Source: a virus. From it: 38,828 nucleotides of DNA. The notes beneath the pieces were generated by a model. That model ran no database searches. It was given only the letters and a program-made list of their open reading frames with translations, and was not told the origin of the DNA. Shown here in pieces: positions 5,640 to 36,265 of this stretch (its first letter is position 1; each line of letters begins with the position of its first letter). The DNA lies in the IMG/VR virus record IMGVR_UViG_3300008267_000127, positions 1 through 38,828 of that record. One strand, given 5' to 3'. The position numbers and the translations under genes are program-made.

Positions 5640-5948
5640 ATGGCTGACATTCGCACATTTGCGCCGGGTTACGGCACGGGCATCACCATCACTGGGGCGA
5701 CCGCACCCGGCAATAACACCGCGTTGCGCGCTGGTTCGCAGCAGGTGGTGGTGACGAACACCGATAGCACGAACATCATTTATTTCCGCACTTGCGCGGC
5801 GTCCACGGACGTTGCGACCACGGCGGATTATCTGGTGCTGCCTGGTCAACAGGTGAGCGTCACCCGCGCGCAGGATCACGCATTTATCGCGGTTGTCGCT
5901 GCGGCTGGCACGCCGTCTGTTCACGTCATCATCGGGGATGGCATCTAA
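5640..5948 (+). CDS. Small beta-rich virion protein, 102 aa
   Basis: The 102-aa product is Thr/Ala/Val-rich with the look of a single beta-sandwich: a strand SQQVVVTNTDSTNIIYFRTC followed by LVLPGQQVSVTRAQ and a final IAVV...VHVIIGDGI. Small proteins like this are common in fibre and decoration loci of podoviruses and often form oligomeric caps. It resembles in style, not in clear sequence identity, the protein at 11843-12175 (both have VTN..., a Cys-containing central strand and a short hydrophobic end). Three bases separate it from the fibre gene downstream. Confidence 0.6.
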   Translation: MADIRTFAPGYGTGITITGATAPGNNTALRAGSQQVVVTNTDSTNIIYFRTCAASTDVATTADYLVLPGQQVSVTRAQDHAFIAVVAAAGTPSVHVIIGDGI

Positions 5949-8375: not shown

Positions 8376-9778
8376 TGGTTCAAATACCCATCATCAAAGG
8401 CATCTACGCGGATACGTCGCCAGACTTTCGCGTGTCGTTGCCTGTCAATTTCCATGCTGTGCCGCGCGACACGGGCATCAGCAGCGGCTATCTGCGCCCT
8501 GCCGATGGAACGGTGCAGACCGGCACCGGCCCTGGCCTGCCGCGTGGTGGCATCCTGTGGAACGGCGTAGCTTATCGCGTGATGGGCACAAAGCTGGTGA
8601 CGCAAGCCGGTAATGGCACTGTCACGGTGTTGGGTGACGTGGGCAGCGGCGGGCAGTGCGGCTTTGATTACAGCTTTGACCGGCTGGCAATCACGTCTGG
8701 CGGGCGGTTGTATTATTGGAACGGCACCACGCTAACCCAAGTGACAGACCCCGACCTTGGCACGGCGCTAACCGTCATCTGGATTGACGGCTATTTCATG
8801 ACGACCGATGGGGAGTTCCTTGTCGTCACGGAATTGACCGACCCGACGCAGGTTAACCCGCTTAAGTATGGCAGCAGCGAGATTGACCCTGATCCTGTCA
8901 ACGGGCTGTTCAAAATCCGCAACGAAGCTGTTGCCGTCAACCGCTACACAATCGAGTATTTCGACAACGTGGGCGGCGATCTGTTCCCGTTCCAGCGCAA
9001 CGAGGGCGCGCAAATCCAGAAAGGCTGTGTCGGCACGTTTGCGGCGGCAATCTATCTTGATACGCTGGCCTTTGTCGGTGGCGGGCGTAACGAAGCGCCG
9101 GCTGTGTATATCGCCAACAATGCAAACGCGGTGAAAGTCAGCACGCAAGAGATTGACGAACTGCTGATGGCCTACAGCGAAACGCAACTGGCCGGCGTCA
9201 TCATGGAAGCGCGCAACGACCGCAGCAATCAGTTGCTCTATATCCATCTGCCAGACCGCACGCTCGTTTATGACGCTGCGGCATCAGAAGCGATTGGCGA
9301 ACCTGTCTGGACGGTGATGGTAACGACACTTGCCGGCTTTGCACAATATCGTGCGCGCGATATGATATGGGCTTATGACCGTTGGCAGGTGGCCGACCCT
9401 GCCTCTACATCGGTGGGCTATTTCACGCGGGATAGCAGCGCGCATTGGGGTGAAAAGGTGCGGTGGGAGTTCAGCACGCCGGTAATCTACAACAACGGCG
9501 CGGGCGCGATTGTGGCCAGCCTGGAACTTGTTGCATTGACCGGCAGCGTTACCCTTGGCAGCGCGCCCGTCATCAGCACAAGTTACACCGTGGACGGCGT
9601 TACATGGTCGCAAGATCGCGCGCTAGGCGTGGGCGGCACTGGGGTTAGGGCCAAGCGTCTGGTATGGTTCCGGCAAGGCTGGATGCGTCATTGGCGCGTG
9701 CAACGTTTCCGTGGCACGTCTGACGCCCACATGCCGTTTGCCCGTCTGGAGGCGGCGATTGAGCCGCTTGCCTACTGA
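8375..9778 (+). CDS. P22 gp10-like tail hub (packaged DNA stabilisation) protein
   Basis: The 467-aa product (P22 gp10 is 472 aa) follows gp4 on the connector and closes the tail channel. Shared landmarks with P22 gp10: the start QIPIIKGIYAD like QLPMMKGMGKD, LPVNF/LPVNM, SSGYLRP/SSGYLRS, TIEYFDNVGG/TIEYFSLTGA, QKGCVGT/QKGIAGT, APAVYIA/APSVYII, GVIMEARNDRSNQLLYIHLP/GVMETLRFDSHELLIIHLP and LVYDA. ATG 8375 overlaps the previous stop (TGATG) and is preferred to the TTG three bases earlier. The one-base overlap on both sides indicates translational coupling. Confidence 0.93.
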   Translation: MVQIPIIKGIYADTSPDFRVSLPVNFHAVPRDTGISSGYLRPADGTVQTGTGPGLPRGGILWNGVAYRVMGTKLVTQAGNGTVTVLGDVGSGGQCGFDYSFDRLAITSGGRLYYWNGTTLTQVTDPDLGTALTVIWIDGYFMTTDGEFLVVTELTDPTQVNPLKYGSSEIDPDPVNGLFKIRNEAVAVNRYTIEYFDNVGGDLFPFQRNEGAQIQKGCVGTFAAAIYLDTLAFVGGGRNEAPAVYIANNANAVKVSTQEIDELLMAYSETQLAGVIMEARNDRSNQLLYIHLPDRTLVYDAAASEAIGEPVWTVMVTTLAGFAQYRARDMIWAYDRWQVADPASTSVGYFTRDSSAHWGEKVRWEFSTPVIYNNGAGAIVASLELVALTGSVTLGSAPVISTSYTVDGVTWSQDRALGVGGTGVRAKRLVWFRQGWMRHWRVQRFRGTSDAHMPFARLEAAIEPLAY

Positions 9779-23627: not shown

Positions 23628-23845
23628 GGTCTACCTCCAGCAATGTATTCAGCGCATTGATTGTATCGACCATCAACAACCCAATGCACCATGCGCCCGC
23701 TAACTTGAGCGCGCTCAATGTGGACAAGCGCAGTCCAATCGCGCGAAGCATTGGTAGCGCGCGCCGCGTCCAATGCGCTGCTAAAACAGCAATGCTCGCT
23801 GATAGCCCCAAGCGAGCCGGCAACAATGTAAGGCGAAACGGTCAT
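23624..23845 (-). CDS. First gene of the left minus-strand operon, 73 aa
   Basis: The 73-aa product starts at ATG 23845 with AAGGGAGAG just upstream; an in-frame ATG at 23869 is rejected because it overlaps the promoter -10. It reads MTVSPYIVAGSLGAISEHC..., then a mixed strand/helix (WTALVHIERAQVSGRMVHWVVDG) and ends RYNQCAEYIAGGRP. No family recognised. An overlapping frame at 23617-23826 has a weaker start and is discarded. It is the first message of the promoter at 23868-23895, so it should be made early. Confidence 0.62.
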   Translation of the reverse strand: MTVSPYIVAGSLGAISEHCCFSSALDAARATNASRDWTALVHIERAQVSGRMVHWVVDGRYNQCAEYIAGGRP

Positions 23846-23867
23846 ATCTCTCTCCCTTGTTGCCCCC

Positions 23868-23895
23868 ATTATATAGCGCCACGCTTACACGTCAA
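23868..23895 (-). promoter_or_regulatory. Strong sigma70-type promoter (P1) with operator-like sequence
   Basis: On the minus strand, TTGACG (23895-23890) is followed after 16 bases by a perfect TATAAT (23873-23868). The spacer holds the shared 13-mer, read on the plus strand as TAGCGCCACGCTT (23874-23886). The -35 overlaps the stop codon of ninB. It drives 23845 to 21226. The leader shares AACAAGGGAGAG and then ATATGAC with the gene at 27794, suggesting common regulation or descent. Confidence 0.8.
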
Positions 23896-24272
23896 GCGCC
23901 TTTTTCGCTCCACGCCACGCCGCGTTCATCGCCCCATTGCTGTATAAACGTAATCAGATCGGCCATTTGTGCCACGGTTAGTTTGCTGCTGCGGAAGCCC
24001 ATGGGAAACGGGCGACCGTCTAGCCCCATCTCGAACACCTGTTCATGGCCGCACGCTTGCATGAACAGCGCCTTCCATACGTCTGGCGTTGCAGCACGGC
24101 CATCAGGACGCGCCTTGGCAACATCGGTCAGCATCGCCCACAGCTTGGCGTTTTGCTCATCGCTGCGGTTGCGTGGCTTAATGACGGCCATCCAATCGGC
24201 AGGCGCTTTCTGCACAAGGCTGATAGCGCGGGCGCGGTTGCGGTCGCTGGAAAGTGACACATGATAAGTCAT
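23892..24272 (-). CDS. ninB: NinB recombination protein
   Basis: The 126-aa product fits NinB (lambda Orf), an SSB-binding recombination mediator that assists Red/ERF-type annealing. Landmarks are RSDEQNAKLWAMLTDVAK near 36-53, DVWKALFMQACGHE near 64-77, then GLDGRPFPMGFRSSKLT near 83-99 and MADLITFIQQWGDERGV near 102-118. Length is close to lambda NinB (146 aa). It is last in the recombination operon and its TGA overlaps the -35 box of the next promoter. Upstream gene overlap is ATGA. Confidence 0.9.
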   Translation of the reverse strand: MTYHVSLSSDRNRARAISLVQKAPADWMAVIKPRNRSDEQNAKLWAMLTDVAKARPDGRAATPDVWKALFMQACGHEQVFEMGLDGRPFPMGFRSSKLTVAQMADLITFIQQWGDERGVAWSEKGA

Positions 24273-25597: not shown

Positions 25598-25609
25598 GTG
25601 TGTTGCTCC

Positions 25610-26305
25610 TTAACCTGCAAACGTGATTGGCAGCGGGCCATTGTCGCCCTTGCCAAGCATCGAATAAACATCGTCATACAAGCCCATGAGCTTGTCATAC
25701 TGCGCTTCATGGCTGGCCTTCAACCGCAGCAGCGCCTTACCGTTCTTGCTGTGCCACAGTGCCAGCGCGCCAGCATCACCAGACTTGCCGATGGCGTCCA
25801 GTTCGATGGCCTGCTTGTCGCACCAATCGGCAACCTTGGCGGTCACATCGTCTTCACCGCCTGGATCGGTTGGCTCAGGATTGACGTTAGCAGGCGGCTG
25901 GCGGGGCTTGGCGGCCTTCGTGGCTGCGTTGCCGTCATCATCCTCTGGTGCCACGCCAAACGCCGTCTGGAGGCTGTAGCGGCGGGCGTAGGTGATGGCG
26001 CTGCCATAGCCTTGCGCGTCTTGCTTGCTGGCCGGCACAAACAACACACCACAAGACAGTTCTTCACCGCTAGCATGGCAGATCAGCGTTTCGACCGCCA
26101 CCCCGCCTTGTGCATCATGGAACGCCTGCCGAAACCAAAGCCCATTGGCAGACAGCGCCGGCTTGATGGCGTCAACAACCGCGCCGAGGTCGGCATATTT
26201 CGTCTTGAAGTGCGGGTTATTGCTGTCTTTCGTAGCGCCCTCGATCTCGGGGAACGCCTTGGCCATTGCCGCGAAAAGCGCCGCGCGCGGATTATCGTTT
26301 GCCAT
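25610..26305 (-). CDS. erf: ERF-family single-strand annealing protein
   Basis: The 231-aa product matches ERF: ALFAAMAKAFPEIEGATKDSNN near 9-30, HFKTKYADLGAVVDAIKPAL near 32-51, GLWFRQ, then YGSAITYARRYSLQTAFGV near 99-117, the ERF signature. It anneals complementary single strands in recombination and genome circularisation, which headful-packaged P22-type DNA needs. P22 Erf is 204 aa. C-terminal part (after about 125) is variable and helical. Twelve bases separate it from ssb downstream. Confidence 0.93.
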   Translation of the reverse strand: MANDNPRAALFAAMAKAFPEIEGATKDSNNPHFKTKYADLGAVVDAIKPALSANGLWFRQAFHDAQGGVAVETLICHASGEELSCGVLFVPASKQDAQGYGSAITYARRYSLQTAFGVAPEDDDGNAATKAAKPRQPPANVNPEPTDPGGEDDVTAKVADWCDKQAIELDAIGKSGDAGALALWHSKNGKALLRLKASHEAQYDKLMGLYDDVYSMLGKGDNGPLPITFAG

Positions 26306-26310
26306 GTCTG

Positions 26311-26601
26311 TTATCCCTTCGCCAGCAATTCAGGTGACAGCCCTGCGGCCACCAGCGCCGTCCGCGCCTTTTCACGCGCAACCGCATCGCACCGCTGCTG
26401 CTGTGCAAGGTCACGCTGCGCCATGGCGTCGTCATACGCCTCTTGCACGGTTGCGCCACGTCCAGACGGGCATGGGCCATGCGCGGCCTGCACAATCACA
26501 AACACGCCGATTGACGAACGCGAGACATGCACGAACTCCACGTCATCGGGAAGGCTGTGAGTGTCCAATGCGGCTTGCATGGCGGTTAGATATGCGTGCA
26601 T
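26311..26601 (-). CDS. Hypothetical protein, 96 aa
   Basis: The 96-aa product begins MHAYLTAMQAALDTHSLP; its ATG 26601 has GGGAGAG six bases upstream. A mid part VEFVHVSRSSIGVFVIVQAAHGP suggests a beta sheet, followed by a helix rich in Gln and Arg (DDAMAQRDLAQQQRCDAVAREK). It overlaps the upstream gene by 16 bases. No family recognised. Confidence 0.55.
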   Translation of the reverse strand: MHAYLTAMQAALDTHSLPDDVEFVHVSRSSIGVFVIVQAAHGPCPSGRGATVQEAYDDAMAQRDLAQQQRCDAVAREKARTALVAAGLSPELLAKG

Positions 26602-27629: not shown

Positions 27630-27678
27630 CGTCTCTCTCCCTATCGCCGCTGCCACTCGGTCTCACACGGCATGTCCT

Positions 27679-27707
27679 TTTATAAGCGCCGCGCTTTATC
27701 CCGTCAA
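27679..27707 (-). promoter_or_regulatory. Strong minus-strand promoter (P2) with operator-like palindrome
   Basis: TTGACG (27707-27702) and TATAAA (27684-27679) are 17 bases apart on the minus strand. The spacer holds AAGCGC-C-GCGCTT (27684-27696, plus-strand reading), a perfect palindrome about one central base and the best copy of the shared 13-mer. It drives the ninB/ssb/erf operon. The predicted leader is about 40 bases. Confidence 0.8.
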
Positions 27708-27718
27708 CAACATTTTTC

Positions 27719-27731
27719 TAGCGCCACGTTA
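27719..27731 (+). promoter_or_regulatory. Fifth copy of the operator-like 13-mer between divergent promoters
   Basis: TAGCGCCACGTTA matches the P1 copy TAGCGCCACGCTT at 11 of 13 positions. It lies between the -35 box of P2 (27702-27707) and that of P3 (27742-27747), so a bound regulator could affect both directions. It is not itself inside a promoter. Confidence 0.55.
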
Positions 27732-27741
27732 TTTTTTCTGA

Positions 27742-27771
27742 TTGACGCAAAAGCCGGCGCATGGGTATATG
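27742..27771 (+). promoter_or_regulatory. Plus-strand promoter (P3)
   Basis: TTGACG (27742-27747) is followed after 18 bases by TATATG (27766-27771); GTATAT one base earlier gives a 17-base spacer. The spacer holds AAAGCCGGCGCAT (27750-27762), an imperfect, reverse-oriented copy of the shared 13-mer. It drives the regulator at 27794 and the early plus-strand genes. Confidence 0.7.
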
Positions 27772-27793
27772 CCCCCATAACAAGGGAGAGCAT

Positions 27794-28216
27794 ATGACAC
27801 ACAGCAAATCCTGGACGCCAGCAGAGGACGCCATGTTGCGCGCCATGATGGCCGCTGGCATGACGCACCGGCAAGTATCGGCACAGCTCGGGCGCACCAT
27901 GCACGGCGTGCAATCGCGGGCCATGCGGCTGGGCGTGAATGTTGACCCGATCCGCTGGAACGACACGATGGACGCGGTTTTGCAGCGCATGTGGCAAACG
28001 ACTGCCACGGCTGCCGAGATTGGCGATGCTGTCGGACGTTCGCCAAGCGCCGTGTGCAAGCGCGCAAAACTGCTTGGCCTCGCCCGTCGCGGCAAGGGAT
28101 ATGTTCGCCCACCGTCGCCAATCGTGAAGGGTGCAGAGGAAAAGCACGCCGACCGCATTGCGACAATCCGCTTTGAAACGCATTATTGCGAAGCCGCCGA
28201 CCGCAATCCAGGTTGA
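27794..28216 (+). CDS. Tandem GcrA/Myb-like HTH regulator
   Basis: The 140-aa product has two successive HTH units: SWTPAEDAMLRAMMAAGMTH, then RQVSAQLGRTMHGVQSRAMR (residues about 6-47) and RWNDTMDAVLQRMWQTTATA, then AEIGDAVGRSPSAVCKRAK (about 54-96). Both resemble the W-T..E...L..LW..G.S...IA..LG unit of the cell-cycle regulator GcrA and of SANT/Myb domains. ATG 27794 has AAGGGAGAG upstream. It is the first gene on the plus strand and may regulate phage transcription or interfere with GcrA control; DNA target unknown. Confidence 0.72.
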   Translation: MTHSKSWTPAEDAMLRAMMAAGMTHRQVSAQLGRTMHGVQSRAMRLGVNVDPIRWNDTMDAVLQRMWQTTATAAEIGDAVGRSPSAVCKRAKLLGLARRGKGYVRPPSPIVKGAEEKHADRIATIRFETHYCEAADRNPG

Positions 28217-30918: not shown

Positions 30919-31253
30919 TAGTGCTGCTATGGCCAGACAAACGTCTGTCACCTAACGCCCGCACACACTTCATGCAGCGCAGCCGTGTCGCCAGGATCGC
31001 CAAGATGGACGCAGCAACGCTGGCATACGCCGCAAAGCTTGTGCTGCCCACTGATGGCCCGATCCGCGTGCTGTGGACGCTGCACCCACCAGACAAGCGC
31101 TCGCGCGATATGGACAACGTAATCGCCAGCCTGAAGCACGCACAAGATGGCGTGGCGCTGGCATGGCGCGTTAACGACGCAAGGTTTGTGCCAACGTATC
31201 AATGGGGCGAACCCGTGCGAGGCGGGCGTGTGACGTTTGAGGTGATAGCATGA
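30915..31253 (+). CDS. rusA: RusA-type Holliday junction resolvase
   Basis: The 112-aa product (E. coli RusA is 120 aa) has LSPNARTHFMQRSRVAR near 11-27, then HPPDKRSRDMDNVIASLKHAQDGV near 57-80 with the catalytic D65 and D67, and WRVNDARF near 84-91 with a third Asp (D88). It should cut four-way junctions before packaging, working with ERF, NinB and SSB. It overlaps its neighbours by four bases. Confidence 0.9.
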   Translation: MIVLLWPDKRLSPNARTHFMQRSRVARIAKMDAATLAYAAKLVLPTDGPIRVLWTLHPPDKRSRDMDNVIASLKHAQDGVALAWRVNDARFVPTYQWGEPVRGGRVTFEVIA

Positions 31254-32074
31254 CAAGGATTGCGATCTGGTTTAGCTGCGGTGCCGCCAGCGCGGTTGCT
31301 GCAAAGCTGATTTTGTCTGAACAACCCGACGCCGTTGTGGCCTATTGCGAGACCGGTATCGAGCATCCCGACAACGAACGGTTTATGGCCGATTGCGTGC
31401 GCTGGTTCAATGTGCCGATTAAGCGGCTGTCAAATCCTGAGTATGCCGACACTTGGGATGTGTGGGAACAGCGCCGCTATATTGCTGGCATTGCGGGCGC
31501 CCCATGCACCGGGGCGCTGAAAAAGCAGCCGCGCATTGCTTTCCAGCAGCCCGGCGATACGCATGTTTTTGGTTACACTGCCGATAGCGAGGATGTGGAG
31601 CGCGCCGACAGGTTCCGCCAGCATAATCCTGAATTGTTGGTGCGCTTTCCGCTGATCGAGCGCGGCATCACAAAACAAGCCTGCCTCGCCATGTTGCAAA
31701 GCGCCGGCATCGAACTGCCGCCCATGTATGCTCTAGGCTTTCAGAACAACAACTGCATCCCATGCCCGAAGGCCACTAGCCCAAATTACTGGGCGGCAAT
31801 GCGCCTGCACTTTCCGGCAGAGTTTGCCCGCATGGTGGCGCTGTCCCGTGAACTGGGCGCACGATTGGCGCGGATGCCCGGCGATGTGCGGGTATTCATT
31901 GATGAGGTGCCGGCAGATTGGCCGACGCTTAACCCGATTGCGCCAGCGTGCGACTTTCTTTGCCACATTGCAGAGCAAGATTTGCGAGACAACGAAAAGG
32001 CCGCCGCAGACACGAAGCCCACGGCGGCCAGTTTGGATGTGCACCACAGGGGAGAGGATGCAAGCAATGGATAA
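31250..32074 (+). CDS. PAPS-reductase-like PP-loop ATPase
   Basis: The 274-aa product has a modified PP-loop FSCGAASAVAAKL (8-20), where PAPS reductases have SGGxDS, followed by AYCETGIEHPDNERF near 31-45, typical of this class. GAPCTGALKKQP near 83-94 and NNCIPCPKA near 166-174 carry Cys pairs that may bind metal. Such phage proteins are related to PAPS reductase/DndC-like enzymes. Substrate unknown; tRNA or DNA sulfur/adenylyl chemistry are possibilities. It lies between RusA and the DnaA-like gene. Confidence 0.8.
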   Translation: MTRIAIWFSCGAASAVAAKLILSEQPDAVVAYCETGIEHPDNERFMADCVRWFNVPIKRLSNPEYADTWDVWEQRRYIAGIAGAPCTGALKKQPRIAFQQPGDTHVFGYTADSEDVERADRFRQHNPELLVRFPLIERGITKQACLAMLQSAGIELPPMYALGFQNNNCIPCPKATSPNYWAAMRLHFPAEFARMVALSRELGARLARMPGDVRVFIDEVPADWPTLNPIAPACDFLCHIAEQDLRDNEKAAADTKPTAASLDVHHRGEDASNG

Positions 32075-32570: not shown

Positions 32571-33316
32571 GCCGCTGGTTCCGCTTTTACGCCGAAGCAA
32601 TGCGTAATCCAAAAGTGATGCGGCTGGCAGATAATGACTTCCGGCTATGGGTTCGCCTGCTTGCCGTGGCATCTGAAAACGATGGTCGCTTGCCACCGAT
32701 TGCCGACCTTAAGCTACTGCTTAACGCCCGTTTAGACCGGCTTGCAGACGGGTTGCAGAGGCTTATAAACTCTGGCTTAATCGACGTTGCAGGGCAAGGT
32801 TATGAGCCTCATAATTGGAGCAAGTTCCAATATAAATCAGACACTTCGACGCCACGTGTAACGTTACATCGCGCAAAACGAAACGTTACTGTAACGCCCC
32901 CAGATACAGAAGCAGATACAGAAGAGATAGCTAACGCTATCTCTAAAGAGCGGGACAAGCCCGCTCGCAAACGCGCTTATCGTTGCCCGGATGATTGGCA
33001 GCCGAAGCCATTGCCAGCCGAGGTCATGGCAAAACTAACGATGATGCCGAGCGATTGGCTGGAGCAAAAACTGGCAGCCATGAAGGATTGGTCAAAGGCC
33101 AGTCCAAACGGTGCCAAGCTAGATTGGGATGCAACTTGGCGCGGATGGGTGCGCCGTGAACTGGAAAAGGAACCGAAGTATGGCAATGGACACATGGAGC
33201 GACATAACGGGCAGGGCGGTGGCCAGTATCGGCGCAGTCCCGGCCTCGAATGGGCAAAGCAGCAATTTGCCATCGGAGACGACAGCGGAACCATTGAAGC
33301 CGACGCCTGGACATAA
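32567..33316 (+). CDS. Replication initiator/replisome organiser
   Basis: The 249-aa product starts SRWFRFYAEAMRNPKVMRL, then a winged-helix-like FRLWVRLLAVASENDG and RLADGLQRLINSGLIDVAGQ near 57-77, typical of the N-terminal domain of lambda O-like and DnaD-like phage replication proteins. The middle is basic and unstructured, and a helical C-terminal region (SDWLEQKLAAMKDWSKA) is like those that recruit helicase loaders. It follows the DnaA-domain protein and hairpin, a layout typical of phage origins. Its 3' end overlaps the next gene by 137 bases. Confidence 0.75.
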   Translation: MSRWFRFYAEAMRNPKVMRLADNDFRLWVRLLAVASENDGRLPPIADLKLLLNARLDRLADGLQRLINSGLIDVAGQGYEPHNWSKFQYKSDTSTPRVTLHRAKRNVTVTPPDTEADTEEIANAISKERDKPARKRAYRCPDDWQPKPLPAEVMAKLTMMPSDWLEQKLAAMKDWSKASPNGAKLDWDATWRGWVRRELEKEPKYGNGHMERHNGQGGGQYRRSPGLEWAKQQFAIGDDSGTIEADAWT

Positions 33317-33830
33317 GCGGGCGATTGCTGAACTTGCCTTGCGCTTTCCGGCTGGCCGGGAATACGATCCCGACCAATACCAGTTGCGGCTGGAATATCT
33401 TGCCAAGGATACGGCGCATATCGCGGTGGGCCTTCTACGCCAAGCCTGCGACCGGGTGGCACAGACGGCGCGTGGCTTGCCCTACGCCAGCGAGATTTTG
33501 ACGGCAGCAACGGCGATTGTTGGAGAGCGCCAGCGCGTCAATCCAAACGAACGGCAGACGGTCAACAGCGATGGCGAGTTCATCAACCCCGGCGATGTGC
33601 CGATTGGCCATCCCGGCGAAAACGTGGAACGTTGTAAGGAACGCAATTGCCAGCTTGCACGTGACGGCGCGGCTTATCGTGTCTTTCCGGTGGGCCGGTT
33701 TAACATGGGCCGGGTGCAGGTTGAGGATGATAACGCGATTGCGCCTACCCATATTTGCAACCGTGACGGCACGTTTCGCAATCGGCACCAGGATAGCGGC
33801 GAAGTGTCGGGATTGTGGCCACGCCAATGA
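33180..33830 (+). CDS. Hypothetical replication-associated protein, 216 aa
   Basis: ATG 33180 with AAGGA eight bases upstream opens a frame that overlaps the 3' end of the replication gene by 137 bases. The protein has GHKRAIAELALRFPAGREYDP, then YQLRLEYLAKDTAHIAVGLL near 77-96 (split), and DRVAQTARGLPYASEIL; the later part includes CKERNCQLARDG and NRDGTFRNRHQDSG. Position next to the initiator suggests a helicase loader or accessory, but no P-loop is seen. It might be a zinc-binding protein. Starting later is possible. Confidence 0.6.
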   Translation: MAMDTWSDITGRAVASIGAVPASNGQSSNLPSETTAEPLKPTPGHKRAIAELALRFPAGREYDPDQYQLRLEYLAKDTAHIAVGLLRQACDRVAQTARGLPYASEILTAATAIVGERQRVNPNERQTVNSDGEFINPGDVPIGHPGENVERCKERNCQLARDGAAYRVFPVGRFNMGRVQVEDDNAIAPTHICNRDGTFRNRHQDSGEVSGLWPRQ

Positions 33831-33859
33831 TTGACGCCCGCAAAACGCCGCGCTATTGT
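33831..33859 (+). promoter_or_regulatory. Promoter (P4) of the HTH gene, probably leaderless
   Basis: TTGACG (33831-33836) and TATTGT (33854-33859) are 17 bases apart. The spacer carries AAACGCCGCGCTA (33843-33855), a copy of the shared 13-mer. Six bases separate the -10 end from the ATG at 33866, which puts the start codon at or near +1; CCCCCC precedes it and there is no ribosome site, so a leaderless mRNA is expected. Confidence 0.68.
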
Positions 33860-33865
33860 CCCCCC

Positions 33866-34129
33866 ATGACACAGCCCGCATCGCCTACGCCTGCCGAGAT
33901 CATCGCCTTTCGTGAAGCGCGCGGCATGACGCAACGTGAGATAGCAAACGCGCTAGGCGTTCACGCTGTCACATGGTCACGCTGGGAGTGCGGCAAGCTG
34001 TCGGTCAATCCAGACCGTTGGCGCGTGCTGCTGACAAAGCAAGTGCTGGCATCGGCTGGAAGCGCAAGGGACAAGCTGGCATCTGTGGCGCATGTGATTG
34101 AGCATGGAACGCTGGAGGCAGCGGCATGA
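33866..34129 (+). CDS. XRE-type HTH regulator, probable autoregulated repressor
   Basis: The 87-aa product has the HTH MTQREIANALGVHAVTWSRW near 21-40, followed by ECGKLSVNPDRWRVLL, typical of XRE/Cro-like DNA-binding domains. It is short, with no room for a LexA-like protease or large dimer domain, so it is more Cro-like than cI-like. An in-frame upstream start at 33815 has no ribosome site and crosses the promoter. The P4 promoter that drives it carries the same 13-mer as P1-P3, so it is the best candidate to bind that site and repress itself and the early promoters. The next gene overlaps by ATGA. Confidence 0.78.
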   Translation: MTQPASPTPAEIIAFREARGMTQREIANALGVHAVTWSRWECGKLSVNPDRWRVLLTKQVLASAGSARDKLASVAHVIEHGTLEAAA

Positions 34130-34272
34130 CCGCGCTTGACCTGCTCGCCAAATACCGCGCCCATTGGCAAGCCATGAGCGACGCCAGCCTATCCGCAGAG
34201 ATAGCACTATGGGAAGGCACGTCTCGCGGTGAGGCGCTGATGATGCTGCAACGGGAGAGAGGCAATGGATGA
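34126..34272 (+). CDS. Small protein, 48 aa
   Basis: The 48-aa product (MTALDLLAKYRAHWQAMSDA...) is an amphipathic, acidic/Ala-rich helix pair ending MMLQRERGNG. ATG 34126 overlaps the preceding stop (ATGA). Function unknown. Confidence 0.5.
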   Translation: MTALDLLAKYRAHWQAMSDASLSAEIALWEGTSRGEALMMLQRERGNG

Positions 34273-34333
34273 CAACTGGATACAGCTTCGCAAAGAGCGA
34301 GGCTATGGTATGCACAATCTGGAGCAAGCATGA
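34265..34333 (+). CDS. Possible micropeptide, 22 aa
   Basis: A 22-codon frame starts at ATG 34265 with a strong site (GGGAGAG, five bases upstream) and overlaps its neighbours at both ends (TGA with the following ATG as ATGA). It reads MDDNWIQLRKERGYGMHNLE. Its start (MDDN) resembles the MDDN of the next gene. It could be a coupling leader or a real small protein. Confidence 0.4.
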   Translation: MDDNWIQLRKERGYGMHNLEQA

Positions 34334-34524
34334 TGGATGACAACCTGGAAGGCTACGCAGACGGCATCAGCGGTCACCCCAAGCAAGACAGACGCTGCGG
34401 TGAATACCGTGAATGGCGCGACTATGAGAACGGTTACGCGCTTGGCAGCGATGACGCGGCTGTGATGGAAGGCAACCGCGCATTTGCTGCATGGGCCGAT
34501 GGCATGGCTGATGGGGACGCATAA
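34330..34524 (+). CDS. Hypothetical acidic protein, 64 aa
   Basis: The 64-aa product (MMDDNLEGYADGIS...) is acidic with aromatic and Gly residues (EYREWRDYENGYALGSDDAA, then FAAWADGMADGDA). GGAG lies five bases upstream. ATG 34330 overlaps the preceding stop; its own stop overlaps the small-terminase start by one base (TAATG). No family recognised. DNA-mimic-like acidity (about 15 Asp/Glu) is visible. Confidence 0.55.
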   Translation: MMDDNLEGYADGISGHPKQDRRCGEYREWRDYENGYALGSDDAAVMEGNRAFAAWADGMADGDA

Positions 34525-34931
34525 TGGGAAGGCCATCACTCAAAACGCCAGAACTGTGCGACGAGATTGAGCAGCGTTTGTCGAAAGGCGAGCCGTTGCT
34601 GCAAATCTGCCGTGATGAGTGGATGCCGACAGCAAGAGCGGTTTATAATTGGATGGATGCCGACGCCGAGCTTTCTTCGCGCATCGCGCGCGCGCGAGAC
34701 CTTGGTTATGACGCCATTGCGATGGAAAGCCTTGAGATTATCGACACGCCACCGGAGCGCGTTGAAGGCAAGATTGATAGCGCGTCTGTGCAATGGGCAA
34801 AGAACCGCGCCGAGCATCGCCTTAAGCTTTTGGCCAAGTGGTCGCCCAACAAATACGGCGACAAGGTTGAGCACGAACACAAGGGCAGCCTGAACCTAGT
34901 GCAAGCATCCTCGCTAGACGAGAAGCTGTGA
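34524..34931 (+). CDS. Terminase small subunit
   Basis: The 135-aa product starts MGRPSLKTPELCDEIEQRLSKGE (split) and continues ICRDEWMPTARAVYNWMDAD near 28-47, a standard small-terminase HTH pattern (R-P-S-x-x-T-P-E-L...I..R...G....IC.D...P....V..W). It recognises the packaging site and recruits the large subunit. The pac site is often within this gene in P22-type phages. GTGA overlap with the large subunit. Confidence 0.88.
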   Translation: MGRPSLKTPELCDEIEQRLSKGEPLLQICRDEWMPTARAVYNWMDADAELSSRIARARDLGYDAIAMESLEIIDTPPERVEGKIDSASVQWAKNRAEHRLKLLAKWSPNKYGDKVEHEHKGSLNLVQASSLDEKL

Positions 34932-36265
34932 CGTTCAAGCTGACGGCCAAGCAAGCCGCCGCGCAAGAGGTGTGCGCCAGCGATGCAACGCACGTCATGC
35001 TGTTTGGTGGTTCGCGTTCGGGCAAGACGTTCCTGCTAGTCCGCAACCTTGTCATGCGCGCCATGAAGGCGGCTGGTTCGCGGCACGTCATCTTTCGCCA
35101 GCGGTTCAACGCGGCCAAGAATAGCATCTGGCTGGACACGTTGCCCAAGGTGATGGCGCTGGCATATCCTGAGATCAAATACACGCTCAACAAGACAGAC
35201 TTTTTCATGGCGCTGCCGAACGCAAGCGAGGTGTGGATTGGCGGCCTTGATGACAAAGACCGCGTTGAGAAGATTTTGGGCATGGAGTTTGCCACGATCT
35301 ATCTCAACGAGTGCAGCCAGATTGCATGGGAAAGCCGCAACATTGCCCTGACACGTCTTGCCCAGGCCGCGACACAGACGATTGAAGGCCGCGAGCCGCA
35401 GCCGCTCAAGTCGCGCATGTATTACGATTGCAACCCGCCGTCTAAAGCCCATTGGACGTTTCGGCTGTTCAAAGAGAAGATTGACGCAGAGACGCGTCTG
35501 CCATTGAAACGCCCTGACGATTACGCGGCTTTCCAGATCAATCCGCAAGACAACCGCGACAACATCGCAGCCGGCTATCTGGAAACGCTGGAAGCGATGC
35601 CGGCCAGATTGCGAAAGCGGTTTCTTGATGGCGAGTTTGGCGACGCAACGCCTAACGCGCTGTTCAATGACGCCACGATTGATACATACCGGCATGAAAG
35701 CGAAGTGCCGCAGCTTGTGCGCGTTGCGGTGGGCGTCGATCCGTCTGGCAGCGATGACAACGACAATGCAGACAATGACGCTATCGGGATTGTGGTCGCT
35801 GGGCTTGGCGTCGATGGCAATGCGTATGTGCTAGAGGATTGCACGGTAAAGGCTGGGCCTGCGACATGGGGCAGCGTTGTGGCCAGCGCATATGACCGCA
35901 ACGAGGCTGACATTGTGGTGGGTGAAACCAACTACGGCGGCGCGATGGTCAACATGGTTGTGCAATCCGCCAGGCCACGAACGCCGTTCAAAGCCGTCAC
36001 CGCATCGCGCGGCAAGCATGTGAGGGCTGAACCATTCAGCGCGCTGTATGAACAGGGCAAGGTGCGCCACGTTGGCAGGTTCAACGAGTTAGAGGATGAA
36101 CTGTGCGGCTTTAACACGACCGGCTATCTTGGCAGCCAATCGCCTAACCGTGCAGACGCGCTGTTCTGGGCATTGGCCGAACTGTTCCCCGCAATGGTGC
36201 AGCCGCGCAAGCAACCCATGACGCACGTTGCGCCACGACCTGTTGCCAGCGCGTTCCGTAGGTGA
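34928..36265 (+). CDS. Terminase large subunit
   Basis: The 445-aa product has Walker A FGGSRSGKT (26-34), Walker B TIYLNE (123-128), and a C-terminal RNase-H-like nuclease with VAVGVDPSG (267-274), followed by NDAIGIVVAG and VVGETNYGG. It powers DNA translocation and cuts concatemers. P22 gp2 is 499 aa. GTG 34928 overlaps the small-subunit stop. Headful packaging is inferred from the family. 52 bases separate it from the portal gene. Confidence 0.93.
   Translation: MTFKLTAKQAAAQEVCASDATHVMLFGGSRSGKTFLLVRNLVMRAMKAAGSRHVIFRQRFNAAKNSIWLDTLPKVMALAYPEIKYTLNKTDFFMALPNASEVWIGGLDDKDRVEKILGMEFATIYLNECSQIAWESRNIALTRLAQAATQTIEGREPQPLKSRMYYDCNPPSKAHWTFRLFKEKIDAETRLPLKRPDDYAAFQINPQDNRDNIAAGYLETLEAMPARLRKRFLDGEFGDATPNALFNDATIDTYRHESEVPQLVRVAVGVDPSGSDDNDNADNDAIGIVVAGLGVDGNAYVLEDCTVKAGPATWGSVVASAYDRNEADIVVGETNYGGAMVNMVVQSARPRTPFKAVTASRGKHVRAEPFSALYEQGKVRHVGRFNELEDELCGFNTTGYLGSQSPNRADALFWALAELFPAMVQPRKQPMTHVAPRPVASAFRR

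Follow-up and report, generated by a model that had tools for sequence, protein, structure and literature searches.

The window analysed here is a 38,828-base stretch of the IMG/VR virus record IMGVR_UViG_3300008267_000127, whose portal and terminase are P22-like. Between an upstream gene, itself located after a replication-initiation-like gene, and the terminase genes lies a gene encoding an HTH protein (Table 1). The upstream gene gave no match in a Pfam search and has a 75% identical relative in three related contigs (L087-L089). Family searches with the 48-aa and 64-aa ORFs that follow the HTH gene also returned no match, a result that Acrs of an undescribed type would escape. A short way upstream of the replication gene, at 31250-32074, the window carries a PAPS-reductase-domain gene (phrog_424, in the class of morons, auxiliary metabolic genes and host takeover). 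Terminase relatives among genomes are found in Dyella, Polaromonas, Rhodanobacter, a gammaproteobacterial MAG and Fangia, whereas the presence of a GcrA-like gene, and methyltransferase matches to Rhodoplanes and Azospirillum plasmids, hint at alphaproteobacteria. A megablast of 14000-38828 against phages found no match.

Table 1. Features of the HTH locus and of the comparison promoter (all on the plus strand)
Feature	Position	Strand	Details
Upstream gene of undefined family	33180..33830	+	open frame 33129-33830, start uncertain; stop TGA 33828-33830
Rival in-frame start ATG	33827..33829	+	overlaps upstream TGA 33828-33830 (ATGA); SD energy -4.1
-35 element TTGACG	33831-33836	+	
-10 element TATTGT	33854-33859	+	17-nt spacer after -35
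Discriminator CCCCCC, 6 nt	33860-33865	+	predicted +1 = A33866
Start codon ATG of HTH gene	33866-33868	+	
HTH gene, 87 aa, XRE/HTH_31, Aca10-like	33866..34129	+	PF13560 E 9.8e-9; 7xi5 E 3.9e-8
48-aa ORF	34126..34272	+	overlaps HTH stop (ATGA); strong SD, -9.3 kcal/mol
64-aa ORF	34330..34524	+	weak similarity to same-place ORF in L089 contig (31% identity, E 0.001)
Terminase small subunit	34524..34931	+	PF20901 E 3.5e-29
Terminase large subunit	34928..36265	+	PF17289, PF04466
Comparison promoter TTGACG-N18-TATATG-CCCCC	27740..27796	+	predicted +1 A27777; 17-nt leader, SD-like AAGGGAGAG; ATG 27794

Sequence comparison places the 87-aa protein among the XRE/HTH_31 DNA-binding regulators, as a relative of Aca10. 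The protein exceeds the Pfam cut-off for PF13560 (35.8 bits against 27) and also that for PF01381 (E 1.4e-5), and its nearest solved relative is Aca10 (PDB 7xi5, a code that we traced to the Aca10 paper, PMC9410881), with 61 of 87 residues aligned. An AlphaFold model from the single sequence reached a pLDDT of 55.5, too low for comparison.

The initial annotation described a -10 TATTGT ending at 33859 and an ATG at 33866 with no ribosome site, and we confirmed this layout, in which TTGACG forms the -35. A sigma-70-type promoter would occupy the 35 nt that separate the HTH gene from the upstream gene. Sigma-A promoters of Zymomonas mobilis have a modal spacer of 17 and a modal discriminator of 6 (PMC7566282), values that would put +1 on 33866 if borrowed for the host of this phage. 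The transcript would most likely begin with the A of the AUG (A33866), and the resulting leaderless mRNA would carry the HTH coding region together with both small ORFs and, perhaps, the terminase genes. The first 12 nt of the RNA predicted from 33866 are unpaired, while 189 of 200 shuffled sequences fold at least as well.

We next asked how far chance explains the promoter. A match of 9/12 is at chance level: 4 kb contained one such site where 1.8 +/- 1.5 would be expected. Such a site ends 5-9 nt upstream of an ATG at only 3 of the 1405 ATGs on both strands of the window; the other two, at 9375 and 25596, lie inside or antisense to other genes, which leaves 33866 as the only plausible gene start of the three. 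In Markov sequences this placement occurred at 44 of 48,236 ATGs, and by our arithmetic about 0.03-0.05 cases would be expected over approximately 31-50 gene starts. Our data indicate that the promoter score alone is at chance level and that its placement before an ATG is not. The placement test has a visible false positive in the 320-aa ORF from GTG 25598 (25598-26560, plus strand), which shows this arrangement by accident. We rejected it as a second leaderless gene because an ERF gene and an ORF that we take to be SSB-like lie on the opposite strand, and used it as a false-positive control.

Three in-frame starts are available to the HTH gene: GTG 33815, which the initial annotation had rightly named, ATG 33866, and ATG 33827, a closer rival that it had missed and that adds 13 residues (the MIDARKTPRYCPP extension). 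We scored anti-SD (Shine-Dalgarno) pairing for 34 starts, namely these three alternatives and 31 others. Pairing energies were -2.2 kcal/mol for GTG 33815, -4.1 for ATG 33827 and +1.5 for ATG 33866, the weakest of all 34, whereas energies of the other 31 starts spanned -1.9 to -10.9; at random positions the median was -2.0. ATG 33866 is thus the one start without any SD, as expected of a leaderless start. The coding score of the 12 codons at 33830-33865, -0.097, falls at the 3.3 percentile among 800 in-frame coding blocks of equal length and is ordinary among off-frame blocks; by codon use these codons look non-coding. Furthermore, with numbering from 33866, residues 4-64 match residues 3-63 of the Aca10 chain (65 aa) in an ungapped alignment, so that the N-terminus from 33866 is in register.

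The start at 33827 has arguments of its own. Translation could be coupled to the upstream gene through the in-frame ATGA overlap, yielding a 100-aa protein and making the promoter-like sequence coding DNA that resembles a promoter by coincidence. Its weak SD pairing exceeds that at 33866, and each of the four relatives whose start was read has its HTH start overlapping the upstream stop or directly beside it (ATGA in L089, TAATGA in L002, TGATCATG in L015, and an ATG just before TAA in L135). However, this reading takes the non-coding-looking codons as coding, and it leaves the promoter, and a second copy of it described below, unexplained. It also places 19 residues ahead of the P-x-P motif, where ATG 33866 places 6; by our count there are 0 in L089, 1 in L002, 4 in Aca10, 7 in L015 and 14 in L135. 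We consider a coupled start unlikely. Both starts might also be used, with read-through mRNA giving the coupled 100-aa form and the local promoter the leaderless 87-aa form. Signals for each are present, and about half of the leaderless units of Z. mobilis are reported to have a leadered upstream unit as well (PMC7566282), yet the extension's codon use again speaks against the longer form, and we regard dual use as quite unlikely. The gradings given to the leaderless, coupled and dual readings are our own judgement.

We found a second promoter-like sequence at 27740-27782, ahead of a GcrA-like / D5-like regulator gene, which reads GATTGACGC...TATATG-CCCCC-ATAACA. It has in common with 33829-33871 the first nine bases, GATTGACGC, and CCCCCATRACA at equal distance, and the latter string occurs in the window only at the HTH promoter and at 27772. 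The two differ in that the predicted transcript from 27742 has a leader with an SD-like sequence while that of the HTH gene has none. Among patterns that were all chosen after seeing the sites, GATTGACGN{20,26}CCCCATRACA was found twice in the window against 0.00 expected, TTGACGN{9,14}GCGCTAT twice against 0.01, and TTGACGN{9,14}GCGCWW four times against 0.57 (33831, 27742, and on the minus strand 27707 and 23895). Short of proof, these counts support reading 33831 as a phage promoter whose putative +1 is the A that follows the run of C. Gapped local alignment of the promoters at 33831 and 27742 was discarded as evidence of conservation; its score of 38 was joint third of 3864 windows and no outlier.

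Two start assignments elsewhere in the window are touched by these promoter-like sites. The region 27660-27800 contains divergent TTGACG promoters (plus strand 27742, minus strand 27707), and the listed ORF start at 27761 falls inside the former; 27794 is the likely start. On the minus strand, 23838-23910 holds TTGACG-N16-TATAAT (11/12) with its -10 overlapping the ATG listed at 23869, and that gene probably begins instead at the ATG that comes next, behind AAGGGAGAGAG.

Together, the missing SD, the exact spacing, the non-coding gap, the second promoter with the same +1 context and the register with Aca10 point to a leaderless HTH gene with a predicted mRNA from the A33866 AUG, which we judge to be the probable arrangement. 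The gene had been described as both leaderless and self-controlled; the first part of this description stands as probable, and the second fares differently, as set out below. Gene callers may pick ATG 33827 or GTG 33815 for this gene.

We then questioned whether the arrangement was shared with related phages. The L089 contig matches 28 of the 51 window proteins and is related over much of its length; the 23 proteins without a match include the large terminase subunit and the HTH protein. After the same upstream gene, L089 carries TTGACG-N17-TAAACA (5654-5682), the -10 of which is weak, followed by a 74-aa ORF with an SD, a different HTH gene (77 aa, start ATGA) and the same terminase small subunit. 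This layout indicates that both a promoter-like site and an HTH gene are retained at the junction, and that the leaderless arrangement is not common to the two phages. L087 and L088 have the same junction sequence as L089, and the three were counted as one observation. The order at 5654-6181 of L089 is that of an acr-aca operon adjoining the terminase, and its 74-aa ORF, of no assigned family, is a candidate anti-defence gene.

Searches with the HTH protein found no close relative in viral_contigs, only partial matches in phages (16 records, 0 covering 80%) and in plasmids (33 records), and weak matches in 23 of 398 genomes (best E 1e-7). A tblastn against 81 terminase loci, including the window's own (L001), gave E < 0.01 besides L001 in L015 only, with L002 at 0.038; most of these loci are without an HTH gene like that of the window. 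Across 178 loci, TTGACGN{9,14}GCGCTAT was found in the window's own copies (L001, L112) and once in the apparent terS coding region of L032, so this motif is not common to these loci. In the annotation of the P22-like phage MW202867, a 'putative DNA binding domain' gene is the sole HTH candidate directly before the terminase.

Aca10 is described as a repressor that binds as a dimer to a 21-bp inverted repeat within the promoter of its operon, Arg44 being the most critical contact (PMC9410881). As in this closest solved relative, the HTH protein might shut its own promoter via an inverted repeat between -35 and -10. The likeness to Aca10 comprises membership of the HTH_31 family and an ungapped N-terminal register over 61 aligned residues, whereas the window's HTH lacks the key DNA-contact residues and the promoter dyad, and no acr gene was recognised. 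By our reading of the alignment, of the Aca10 contacts Q22, Q37 and R44 only the first is kept (Q23), the others being S38 and L45 in the HTH protein; Aca10 R34 is replaced by V and Q38 by R. A dyad search of 33825-33875 found none overlapping the promoter, the best (4/5) being matched by 192 of 200 shuffled sequences. The HTH gene also comes first behind its promoter, in contrast to aca, the last-named gene of the acrIC7-acrIC6-aca10 operon. The description of the gene as self-controlled is consequently unsupported, because no dyad overlaps its promoter, and with the contact residues changed as well, autoregulation by the known Aca mechanism is not indicated. We consider such an autorepressor very unlikely, which is a separate question from the choice of start; a non-palindromic or distant operator may still exist. 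Many Aca-like genes are reported to occur widely in the absence of any known acr gene (PMC9410906). Among the papers that our literature search listed on anti-CRISPR-associated or Aca2 proteins, none contains the word leaderless.

The promoter-to-start arrangement was also sought across IMG/VR. A scan for TTGACG-N17-TATTGT-N6-ATGA returned 44 stretches, 18 of them with an ORF of at least 60 aa, several of which lie inside long genes. The scan shows that the arrangement recurs and is no proof for the HTH gene of the window. In L215 (3509-3738), a Cro-like 64-aa protein (PF09048, E 2.5e-6, under the Pfam cut-off) lies directly behind TTGACG-N17-TATTGT-N6-ATG and is possibly another leaderless phage regulator. 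A similar TTGACG...TATTGT...ATGA element with an 8-codon ORF (MNHF...) makes up 13 of the 44 matches, on contigs of 37-39% GC (L181, L187, L189, L192, L194, L197, L198, L200, L201, L206, L210, L219 and L220); this appears to be a conserved promoter-like element.

Leaderless mRNAs are an established class. Leaderless genes occur in 207 of 953 bacterial genomes surveyed (PMC3160421); Caulobacter is reported to have 375 leaderless mRNAs with translation efficiency similar to that of leadered ones (PMC4117421), and Z. mobilis 119 (PMC7566282). The predicted transcript of the HTH gene resembles these in beginning at or next to the AUG, but those genes are cellular while ours belongs to a phage. Closer parallels are cI and cro of phage PY54, shown by RACE to have leaderless repressor mRNAs in a paper that likens PY54 cI to lambda cI, cited as leaderless (PMC4488713). 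These share with the HTH gene a small phage HTH regulator, a strong promoter adjoining the start codon and an mRNA, predicted here, that begins at the AUG. In contrast, as described there, PY54 cI and cro lie in an immunity region where 5' ends have been mapped and operators are present, whereas the HTH gene lies between a replication gene and the terminase, has no operator found and has a predicted 5' end. The comparison of the initial annotation with lambda cI transcribed from PRM holds for a leaderless regulator mRNA, again predicted here, but lambda CI binds operators beside PRM and none was found for the HTH gene. Leaderless phage regulators are thus already known, and the HTH gene is probably a further case. 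The earlier suggestion that leaderless translation would let the regulator behave differently during host takeover does not follow.

A broader and highly speculative scheme, to which we give little credence, is that the slot between replication and terminase genes may be a place where HTH genes and their small neighbours are exchanged behind a TTGACG promoter that is retained. Here the HTH gene would sit directly on the promoter and give both coupled 100-aa and leaderless 87-aa Aca10-like forms, and regulator output would depend on the state of the infected cell's ribosomes. If the leaderless arrangement is true, a phage of an uncultured lineage would join the list of those with leaderless regulators, at a terminase-adjacent place, and the leaderless arrangement would become linked with an Aca10-like HTH protein.
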